Shown here: in pieces, positions 45,249 to 57,331 of the stretch | Position numbering within the stretch: position 1 is the first letter of the stretch | How the letters are laid out: every line of letters starts with the position of its first letter | NCBI RefSeq assembly: GCF_037076425.1 | Contig: NZ_AP028127.1 | Span: 1,270,001-1,334,000 of the forward strand | From: Turicibacter faecis | GTDB lineage: Bacteria; Bacillota_I; Bacilli_A; MOL361; Turicibacteraceae | Direction: 5' to 3' | Length of the DNA: 64,000 nt | Notes under the pieces: generated by a model | Told to the model about the DNA's origin: nothing | Databases searched by the model: none | What the model saw: the letters and a program-made list of their open reading frames with translations, nothing else | Translations under genes and position numbers: made by a program

Positions 45249-45473
45249 TTGTTTAAGAGGAATGAAACAATAGCAAACGTTATGAGTCAATCTCTTATCT
45301 CTCAAGAGAAAAGTTTTACTAATCCACTCATTTGGTTCGATCTAACATTAGAAATTATAAATTTCCTTCACACCCAAGAGGTTAAAATATGTATTTCTAT
45401 TCATTCGACTGATTGGCGGCTTTCAGTATTTATACTTTCATTACTGCTGCTCTATTTCGTCATTACAAATTAA
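45249..45473 (+). pseudogene. Degenerate copy of a small membrane-protein ORF
   Basis: 74-codon reading frame from a TTG without a usable SD. Its last 25 residues (VFILSLLLLYFVITN end) are the same as the membrane helix encoded in the second duplicate at about 45597-45668, but one T is missing near 45414, so the upstream part is frameshifted relative to that copy. Probably the damaged first copy. Confidence 0.45.
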
Positions 45474-45747
45474 AGGAGGTGCACCGTTTTGGAGAAAAAA
45501 ACGAATGAGTCACCATTAAAAGCGATAAAAAAAGGGGATGAGGCCAACCGCGACCAAACCGACTCCCCCACCCTGTTAAGTTGTTTATATGCATTTATTC
45601 GACTGATTTGGTGGCTTTTGGTGTTTATCCTTTCATTACTGCTACTCTATTTCGTCATTACAAATTAAGGAGGTGTACCGTTTTGGAGAAAAAAACGAGT
45701 GAGTCACAATTAAAAGCGATAAAAAAATGGAATGAGGCCAACCGCGA
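45403..45747 (+). repeat. 151-bp tandem duplication (two copies, offset 194 bp)
   Basis: Copy 1 is 45403-45553 and copy 2 is 45597-45747. They share ATTCGACTGATT at the left end and GAGGCCAACCGCGA at the right end, with scattered substitutions and two 1-nt indels between. Each copy holds the end of a small membrane ORF, an SD (GGAGGTG) and the first codons of the next small ORF. Confidence 0.9.
45489..45668 (+). CDS. 59-residue fusion of two small duplicated ORFs
   Basis: TTG start with SD GGAGGTG about 8 nt upstream. The first 20 or so residues (MEKKTNESPLKAIKK) match the start of the 61-residue ORF that follows; the last 30 form one membrane helix (WWLLVFILSLLLLYFVIT). It looks like a fusion created when the tandem duplication deleted the rest of the first small gene. 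It may still be translated as a small membrane protein. No function is known to me. Confidence 0.45.
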   Translation: MEKKTNESPLKAIKKGDEANRDQTDSPTLLSCLYAFIRLIWWLLVFILSLLLLYFVITN

Positions 45748-45868
45748 GAAGGCGAATTACACCCGAGGTAAATCTGCAGCTAAAAGCTTCATTAAGAATA
45801 AGGCAACATTAGAAGATTTAGAGATGTTAGAGGAAGTTATCCACGAGCGACGCCAGTCATTAAAATAA
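45683..45868 (+). CDS. Small charged helical protein (61 residues)
   Basis: TTG start with AAGGAGGTG 7 nt upstream. The protein is rich in Lys, Glu and Arg and is predicted helical: KAIKKWNEANREKANYTRG, then AAKSFIKNKATLEDLEMLEEVIHERR. Its pattern (W/K-rich start, SFI(K/R)NxAT, E/L-rich helix) resembles small proteins I associate with mobile elements of Firmicutes; that is recollection, not a search result. Its stop is followed by a third, damaged relative. The family is not named. Confidence 0.65.
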   Translation: MEKKTSESQLKAIKKWNEANREKANYTRGKSAAKSFIKNKATLEDLEMLEEVIHERRQSLK

Positions 45869-47779: not shown

Positions 47780-48172
47780 ATGAATTGGAGTTTAATTATT
47801 GTTGCGATTCTTTTAGGTATTGCTTTAGGATTATGGATTATGTTACGCCGCGAATCAAAAAAAGCCGTAACCCTTCTATCAGAAAAAGAGTTTGTAGAAA
47901 ATATGCGTAAAGGACAACTCGTTGATTTACGCAAAAAAGAAGAATTTGATGCTGGACATATCAATGGGGCTCGTAATATTCCATTCGTTAATTTAACACG
48001 TAACCCTGGAAAATTACGTCGCGATTTACCTATTTACTTATACTGCGAAAAAGGAAAAGTTTGTAAACGTGCCGCTCTTGTCCTTTATGGTAAAGGATAT
48101 GAAAACATTTATCAACTTCAAGGCGGATTAACAAATTGGACAGGACCTTTAAAAAAGACCACAAAAAAATAA
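47780..48172 (+). CDS. Membrane-anchored rhodanese-domain protein (YqhL-like)
   Basis: 130-residue protein with an N-terminal membrane helix (about 4-21) and a cytosolic rhodanese domain: LVDLRKKEEFDAGHINGARNIPF, and the active-site Cys89 in YLYCEKGKVCKRAA. Rhodaneses carry sulfur on this Cys. The anchor plus single domain resembles Bacillus YqhL. SD AAGGAGG lies 9 nt before the ATG. It is divergent from efp and has its own terminator. Substrate unknown. Confidence 0.85.
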   Translation: MNWSLIIVAILLGIALGLWIMLRRESKKAVTLLSEKEFVENMRKGQLVDLRKKEEFDAGHINGARNIPFVNLTRNPGKLRRDLPIYLYCEKGKVCKRAALVLYGKGYENIYQLQGGLTNWTGPLKKTTKK

Positions 48173-48222: not shown

Positions 48223-48314
48223 ATTTTCCATTGTAACCGATCATTTTGATTAATCCCCCACACGCTCAAGTAATGCCCCCACTGAAGCCAAGCGAGATGG
48301 CCATCTAAACAAAA

Positions 48315-48479
48315 ATTTAACTCCTACTCTAGTTAAATGATAAACCATGAACTCAATATCTCGGTCGTGCATTACTGTAAAATTTAGATTCTACTATAGT
48401 TAAACGATAAACGCCACAAACTTCTAAAAGCAACGACATTCTAAAAGCATTTAGATTCTACTATAGTTAAACGATAAAC
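48315..48479 (-). CRISPR. Orphan mini CRISPR array, 3 repeats and 2 spacers
   Basis: Two identical 31-bp repeats at 48382-48412 and 48449-48479, plus a degenerate one at 48315-48345 (26 of 31 identical). All are spaced exactly 67 bp start to start, with two unrelated 36-bp spacers (48346-48381 and 48413-48448). Read on the minus strand the repeat begins GTTTATCG and ends CTAAAT. The degenerate copy is then the last one, as is usual at the end away from the leader. Repeat length, 36-nt spacers and the ends look like clostridial type I-B arrays; this subtype is inference. No cas genes in the window. Confidence 0.8.
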
Positions 48480-48592
48480 CCGTTAAACGGGACTAATATT
48501 GTTATTTTATACCTCATCAACCTATTTTATTCGTTCGTTTTATGAAAATAATAACAATAATAAGCTTATCTTCGCTTCGATTGCTTCATTTT

Positions 48593-48638
48593 ATCTGTCG
48601 TTCCCCCGAGGTTTTTACCTCAAAGGAAGTCGACAGAT
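48593..48638. repeat. Long interrupted hairpin of unknown role
   Basis: Outer arms ATCTGTCG / CGACAGAT (48593-48600, 48631-48638), inner TTCC / GGAA and a GAGGT-TTTT-ACCTC tip (48608-48621). An extra CTTCGA / TCGAAG pair may extend it outward. No T-run on either side. Confidence 0.6.
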
Positions 48639-48801
48639 TCGAAGGCAAACGTCTATGAACCAAAAAGAACAGAATTGAGAGTAGTCCCTATTATATGAAC
48701 AAAAGTTGATTGATCCATAACAATTAATCTAACGAGCATAAAACATCATCAATAATTATAATTTAAAAATCATCTACTCCCTTATAAGAGGTAATCAAAA
48801 C

Positions 48802-49269
48802 TCAATTTGTTGCCTTATACAACTTTTGCATCGATGAATCATTTTGTATGAATTGATCAAAGTCTTCAAACTCTCCAACCAATTCATGACGACTAAACGA
48901 AATAACATTATGATCCTCAAGATCAAAGTGTATAGCATCCACATTTTCAATAAGCGAAAATAACACAACTGCATTTCCTTTTAAAACGGTCTCTTGTGAA
49001 ACTTGTTTTTCCTCTTTCTTACCGATTTTAACATCTGTGTACTGAAAATCTTTATACGCAATTGTTATTTCATATGGAGGCTGATTTGTCTTTAAAGAAA
49101 ACCCCGTTAAATACTCATTAGCAGGCAATTTATTAAGGATGGTACCGACTGCTGAATTGTTTCCAACATAAGTCCCTTTATAATCAGCCCATGAAAACTC
49201 TCTAGGTAAACGAGAGCAACCAGTAAATAAAGCGAAAAACATCACTAATATTAAAATTCGTTTTTTCAT
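48802..49269 (-). CDS. DUF4825-like lipoprotein
   Basis: 155-residue protein with a lipoprotein signal (MKKRILILVMFFALFTGC, Cys18). The mature part starts with YKGTYVGNNSAVGTILNKLP and PYEITIAYKDF, the pattern I associate with DUF4825 domains, which are often found on sporulation- or envelope-related lipoproteins. No function is known. It is downstream of yqeY but separated by a terminator. SD GGAGAA before the ATG. Confidence 0.75.
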   Translation of the reverse strand: MKKRILILVMFFALFTGCSRLPREFSWADYKGTYVGNNSAVGTILNKLPANEYLTGFSLKTNQPPYEITIAYKDFQYTDVKIGKKEEKQVSQETVLKGNAVVLFSLIENVDAIHFDLEDHNVISFSRHELVGEFEDFDQFIQNDSSMQKLYKATN

Positions 49270-49288
49270 CGTTATTCTCCTTTAATAT

Positions 49289-49316
49289 AAAAAAAACACA
49301 CAAAGATGTGTGTTTT
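49289..49316 (-). terminator. Terminator of rpsU-yqeY
   Basis: Stem AAACACACA / TGTGTGTTT (49294-49315), followed on the minus strand by eight T; it touches the yqeY stop. Confidence 0.8.
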
Positions 49317-56188: not shown

Positions 56189-57331
56189 TTATTTAAAAGC
56201 TTTTTTTAATCGATCCCAAATTGACCCTGTTTTATCCTCTAACTGATCAAATTCATTCAATAGTTCTCTTTGACGATGATTTAATTTCTTTGGAACAACA
56301 AGTTTTACTTTAACGTAAAGATCACCTGTCATCTCACGGTTAATGTATTTAATTCCCTTATTACGTACCCTAAATTCTGTTCCTGGTTGTGTTCCTTCTG
56401 GAATTTTCAACGCGACCTTACCGTTTAAGGTTGGTACTTCAACCTCGGCACCTAGGGCTGCTTGAGAGAATGAAATTGGAATTTCACATCGAAGGTCATA
56501 GCCATCTCTGACAAAGAAGTCATGTGGTAAAACACGGAATGCAACATATAAATCTCCGCTTGGACCACCATTTCTACCTGCCTCTCCTTGACCACTTAGG
56601 CGAATTTGTTGTCCATCATCAATTCCCGCAGGAACCTTAACCTCAATTGTTTTTGTTTTATTGACTGTTCCACGTCCGTGACAAGCATCACAACGGTGTT
56701 TAATTTTCTTACCATCTCCGTGACAATCCGGACAAACACTTTGTGTTTGAACTCGTCCTAAAATAGTATTTTGGACTTCTGTTACACGTCCGCTACCGTT
56801 ACATCTTGTACATGTTTCAATATCATCTTTTGAGCGAGCACCACTTCCACCACATTTTGTACACTCTTCTTCACGTGTCACTGAAATTTCTTTTGTTGCA
56901 CCAAAGGCTGCCTCTTCAAAAGAAATAGTAATCGATTGTTGTAAATCATTTCCTCGTTGTGGAGCATTCGGATTTCGGCGGCCGGCTCCGCCACCAAATC
57001 CTCCGAAGCCTCCTCCAAACATACTTTCAAAAATATCCCCGATATCCTCGAAGCCTCCGGCTCCACCGAATCCGCCAAATCCTCCGAAGCCACCGGCTCC
57101 ACCGAATCCTTCAGCTCCAGCGTGTCCAAATTGATCATAAGCCGCACGTTTTTGTTCGTCACTTAAAACATCATAGGCTTCCTGTACTTCTTTAAATTTT
57201 TCTTCCGCATTTTCCTCTTTCGAAACGTCCGGATGGTATTGTTTTGCCAATTTACGATATGCACGTTTAATTTCGATATCACTTGCCGTTTTTGAAACCC
57301 CAAGGATTTCATAATAATCACGTTTTGCCAC
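56189..57331 (-). CDS. dnaJ: Chaperone DnaJ
   Basis: Co-chaperone that delivers substrates to DnaK and stimulates its ATPase. The 380-residue protein has the J domain with HPD (about 33-35), a long Gly/Phe-rich region (about 75-120), four CxxCxGxG zinc motifs (about 158-218) and the C-terminal substrate-binding domain, the type I DnaJ layout. It follows dnaK past a terminator-like hairpin. Confidence 0.97.

Follow-up and report, generated by a model that had tools for sequence, protein, structure and literature searches.

Between two chromosomal genes of Turicibacter faecis lies a short run of near-identical repeats, which raises the question of whether this is a genuine CRISPR array and, if so, what kind of machinery built it and whether anything in the cell still uses it. 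The stretch of DNA that we analyzed, here called the window, comprises 64,000 nucleotides of the single contig (2.43 Mb) that makes up the genome, and its features are listed in Table 1. A 31-nt unit occurs there three times, beginning at 48315, 48382, and 48449, with 67 bp from one start to the next in both cases. An earlier note on this DNA had described three such repeats separated by two unrelated 36-bp spacers, with one terminal repeat degenerate; its coordinates were exact, and the degenerate copy, R3, lies at the trailer end when the array is read in the type I-B orientation. The identity between R1 and R2 ends sharply at both repeat borders, and the similarity between the two spacers is at chance level. 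The locus accordingly has the near-identical, regularly spaced direct repeats of a CRISPR (31 nt, with a 67-bp period) and its unrelated spacers of similar length (36 and 36 nt). Among exact repeats no more than 300 bp apart, none in the window is longer than the 31-nt match of R1 and R2, the runner-up being 24 nt; in 20 random 64-kb sequences generated from a first-order Markov model, with matching dinucleotide composition, the longest local exact repeat was 12 to 16 nt. Elsewhere in the window, positions 45435-45750 contain a duplicated stretch, with exact blocks of 14 to 24 nt about 195 bp apart, that runs across short overlapping ORFs, and an 18-bp tandem repeat, CGAAGCCTCCAGCTCCAC, is present in about four copies at 57049-57119.

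Table 1. Features of the array and its surroundings (positions in the window)
Feature	Positions	Strand	Remarks
R1, leader-side repeat	48449..48479	-	GTTTATCGTTTAACTATAGTAGAATCTAAAT; identical to R2
S1, 36-nt spacer	48413..48448	-	GCTTTTAGAATGTCGTTGCTTTTAGAAGTTTGTGGC; 8/36 identity to S2
R2	48382..48412	-	Identical to R1
S2, 36-nt spacer	48346..48381	-	TTTACAGTAATGCACGACCGAGATATTGAGTTCATG
R3, degenerate trailer-end repeat	48315..48345	-	26/31 match, 5/31 mismatches
Leader-end octamer	48480..48487	-	TTTAACGG; directly before R1
13-bp palindrome	48479..48491	.	CCCGTTAAACGGG (+) / CCCGTTTAACGGG (-); contains octamer and first base of R1
Putative leader	48480..48580	-	Placed by position and composition (71% A+T; window, 63%); length guessed
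Lineage-specific stretch with array	48233..48810	.	About 578 bp; not found in relatives
Flanking rhodanese-domain gene	47780..48172	+	Pfam PF00581; present in 8/8 family genomes
Flanking DUF4825 gene	48802..49269	-	Pfam PF16107; presence at site variable

Within the genome, the unit was found in this array only. Across the whole sequence, a search allowing up to 3 mismatches found the repeat in the two array copies only, and the 661-bp region around the array has no second match there. A dispersed element was therefore rejected, and single copies scattered over the genome, the outcome that the earlier note had named as speaking against a CRISPR, were not seen. A tandem repeat was likewise rejected, as the array was not reported by Tandem Repeats Finder (TRF). 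Beyond this genome, the repeat was not found in genomes of the family or in 394 relatives of the class (up to 3 mismatches), nor, with the patterns tried, in viral and genome collections, except for one match in another genome (L035), which we discarded as a single copy outside any array. No near-identical repeat adjoining cas genes was found anywhere searched, and the literature, searched by the letters of the repeat, gave no match.

To what type of system does such a repeat belong? Reference I-B loci were sought in the class by means of Cas7 of the DevR family, for which 3 of 395 genomes were positive. L049 is a full I-B locus when read gene by gene (Cas6b, Cas8b, Cas7b, Cas5b, Cas3b, and Cas1b), with the array repeat GTTTTAATTCGACCATATTGGAATGTAAAT; the arrays L050 and L051 lie no more than 20 kb from a Cas7/DevR match and are called I-B-type by that Cas7 match alone; and L052 is a viral contig, its 29-nt repeat, which we take to be the Clostridioides difficile I-B repeat, being present as arrays in viral contigs. 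Compared with four I-B-type repeats, the T. faecis repeat gave z values of 3.8 to 5.2 over shuffles, and none of 1,000 shuffles reached its score, whereas control comparisons with the I-C-type and II-A-type repeats found in the family of T. faecis gave z values of 0.7 to 1.3. For the 29-nt repeat of L052, 2 of 16,747 sampled window positions reached the score, as expected for R1 and R2 themselves. The array shares with those of L049 and the 29-nt repeat a GTTT start, an AACTATA-like middle, and a GAATNTAAAT end, as well as a repeat of about 30 nt and a period of 65 to 70 bp. It differs from type I-B arrays in that its 31-nt repeat was seen nowhere else, it has two spacers only, and no I-B cas genes were found with it. 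Measured against arrays located close to I-B cas genes, it is a type I-B-like repeat.

In the I-B orientation, the leader would be expected on the high-coordinate side of the array and the trailer at 48315, the position of the degenerate copy. The leader junction resembles those of two Cas7-linked I-B-type arrays: the octamer TTTAACGG also directly precedes the first L050 repeat (8/8, the L050 repeat border being uncertain by one base), and the first repeat of L049 is preceded by TTTAATGG, which matches the array octamer at 7/8 positions, so that a leader end of the form TTTAA[C/T]GG is shared with two members of the class. In a comparison for which 16 leader-by-shift combinations were tried, no sampled window position gave a full match to the L050 octamer and a fraction of 0.0008 gave a match at the L049 level; the octamer is not common in register to L051 or L052. 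The palindrome at the junction had been noted before as an additional oddity. It is real, but it is no mere extra, as its first base lies within the repeat and one of its halves is the leader-end motif; on the minus strand it is terminator-like, with a weak T-run. The putative leader contains no sigma-70 promoter by consensus.

A search of the whole genome with models for Cas1, Cas3, Cas6, and DevR-type Cas7 found no cas gene inside the window. The absence of cas genes from the window, as first noted, thus held for these four models, but the genome does carry a type II-A CRISPR-Cas system. The only Cas1 of the genome sits in this locus, at approximately 33 to 39 kb of the contig and about 1.28 Mb from the array, together with Cas9 (1118 aa), Csn2, and Cas2, the last being our reading of a 107-aa ORF. 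These genes are followed by a 36-nt repeat, GTTTTAGTACCCTTAAGATTTTAGCTACTGTAAAAC, with 29 copies among the matches listed, which is unrelated to the 31-nt array repeat in either orientation (z 0.96 to 1.24). Two rRNA-like duplicated regions (L004 495-1439 and 15299-15529) flank the II-A locus, which is preceded by what we read as an ORF for an IS30-like transposase and followed by three promoter-like repeats. Neither DevR-type Cas7 nor Cas6 was found in the genome, with models that gave a match in just 2 of the 14 control genomes, and no Cas3 exceeded the curated cut-off (best score, 47 bits versus 102); weak Cas3 matches also occurred in all control genomes, as expected of general helicases. 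A complete type I-B set was thus not found by an effector search that covered Cas3, Cas6, and DevR-type Cas7, and the only Cas1 is that of a type II system. In the rest of the family, only two genomes have Cas1, which is Cas1c beside I-C-type repeats in one (G006) and lies by II-A-type repeats in the other (G005). Because Cas1 in the family is all of I-C or II-A type and no qualifying Cas3, Cas6, or DevR-type Cas7 was found in the genome, the array has no visible partner in this genome or its family.

Comparison with relatives, one genome per species, places the array in DNA peculiar to its lineage. In G001, G002, and G004, all of the same genus, the rhodanese gene is directly followed by the gene that lies beyond the DUF4825 gene here, which we read as YqeY-like, and the site lacks the array. 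G003 is the closest genome, with a rhodanese protein that is 96% identical and with DUF4825 present; homology ends at 48232 and restarts at approximately 48811, and the array was not found at this site, which is broken there by contig ends and N runs. This break in homology, together with the direct adjacency of the genes in relatives, indicates that the array lies within the lineage-specific stretch, in a slot whose DNA differs from one lineage to another. The slot of G003 (L033 3050-3970) contains repeated elements with terminator-like inverted repeats, N runs, and assembly gaps. Relatives and phages gave weak matches to the region; these lay in A+T-rich parts beyond the array and were judged to be due to chance. 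The lineage-specific stretch also contains a strong hairpin beside the array (48587-48645; z of a 91-nt fold, -4.1 on the plus strand and -5.9 on the minus strand), for which no Rfam family and no match in relatives were found. The trailer (48225-48312, minus strand) can also be read as a peptide-like sequence, an interpretation that was dropped because neither Pfam nor NCBIfam gave a match.

CRISPR origin would be proved most directly by a protospacer match. No credible protospacer was found for S1 or S2 in phages, plasmids, or viral contigs (18-nt seeds), in this genome, or in 59 relatives, the plasmid search and one phage search having used the whole array as the query. A viral match for S1 (L034; 22/36) consisted of the seed only, approximately what chance gives for an 18-mer, and the best phage BLAST match of the spacers had an E value of 0.4, the matches being to unrelated hosts; neither was retained. 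A structural RNA was rejected as well: Rfam gave no credible match, the repeat forms no fold of its own, and conservation of the 36-bp intervals across distant strains as part of such an RNA, which the earlier note had raised as evidence against an array, was looked for and not seen. A weak match to rliB in Rfam at 49214-49315 (E value, 0.37) falls below the cut-off and does not overlap the array.

We consider it likely, with a probability of roughly 0.8, that the locus is a true CRISPR array, orphaned and of type I-B descent, on the minus strand, its machinery lost or never brought, and that it is probably inert. This reading draws on what is directly observed, namely, the architecture, the I-B-like repeat and leader junction, the lack of a qualifying Cas3, Cas6, or DevR-type Cas7, the unrelated II-A repeat, and the lineage-specific site; against it stand the presence of two spacers only, neither with a protospacer, and the lack of a near-identical cas-linked repeat. 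Read on the minus strand, the array would run from a leader (48480 upward) through R1, S1, R2, and S2 to R3, the degenerate copy. Spacers would formerly have been inserted beside R1 by a type I-B integrase (Cas1-Cas2, plus Cas4 in systems that have it), at the leader end that still bears the octamer. The cas genes may then have been deleted, leaving the array behind as a stub, or a short array may have arrived without them; loss and transfer of a bare array are indistinguishable here, and we infer an origin by one or the other. Since type I-B machinery was not found in the genome, we think it most likely that the array is an inert remnant of an immune system since lost or once borrowed, and since the II-A repeat is unrelated, the resident Cas9 is not expected to use it, so that the array is probably idle today. 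The two origins first proposed for it fare differently: descent as a relic from an I-B-like locus since lost fits the I-B-like repeat, the leader motif, the undispersed unit, and a locus not found in relatives, whereas service by cas genes located elsewhere finds no support in a genome where the sole cas locus found is II-A, with an unrelated repeat, and where no qualifying Cas3, Cas6, or DevR-type Cas7 was found.

How firmly can inactivity be asserted? RliB of Listeria is a cas-less array whose transcript is processed by PNPase and which can serve a type I system in trans; its repeats do not differ from one another, the locus is conserved throughout the genus, and one-third of the spacers have matches in phages or prophages (PMC3886909). 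Like RliB-CRISPR, the T. faecis array is a small cas-less array between chromosomal genes in Bacilli, and because of this precedent for expression and use in trans, its present inactivity is put as probable only. A similarly cas-independent orphan array, whose transcript would be processed by PNPase or other host RNases, could act as a small RNA or as a store of guides for type I effectors met by transfer, and the two intact repeats and leader-end motif would suit such a role. In contrast to RliB, however, the array here is lineage specific rather than kept at the same locus across the genus, one repeat is degenerate, and no spacer match was found; with no promoter by consensus and a repeat that does not fold, we regard an RliB-like role as unlikely. 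A narrower form of this idea, a mini-array still transcribed beside the II-A system, with a regulatory or guide-storage function in which the palindrome is a working part, seems to us quite improbable.

The remaining alternatives concern the nature of the repeats and the identity of their user. Short duplicated elements that only resemble CRISPRs make up about one-quarter of raw predictions (PMC5294841), and an element of this kind, evenly spaced by chance, would account for two spacers only, neither with a protospacer, and for the lack of cas genes nearby. It would not be expected to combine spacers of equal length but unrelated sequence with sharp repeat borders, degeneracy at the correct end, an I-B-like repeat, and a leader-end motif common to other arrays, in a unit neither dispersed nor reported by TRF, and this explanation is very unlikely. 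As for the user, the complete-looking II-A locus invites the thought that its Cas9 serves the locus in trans as a second array. Type II systems require pairing of a tracrRNA with the repeat, and the 36-nt II-A repeat is unrelated to the 31-nt unit in either orientation, which makes service by Cas9 extremely improbable. Streptococcus pyogenes provides a comparable case, an isolated CRISPR with a repeat distinct from those of its resident systems, which was judged to be an orphan with lost function (PMC5294841). The orphan I-B-like array of T. faecis is likewise isolated and has a repeat unlike that of the resident system; in S. pyogenes, however, spacers were compared across strains, whereas here the species is represented by one genome.

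Orphan arrays are thus a known kind, to which the present one adds a case that may be set beside Listeria RliB. That its leader-end octamer is common to arrays of different families yields a testable prediction about the sites at which I-B integrases insert spacers in Bacilli. The locus also offers an example of CRISPR-Cas turnover, in which a genome with a II-A system keeps, or has acquired, a two-spacer I-B stub.
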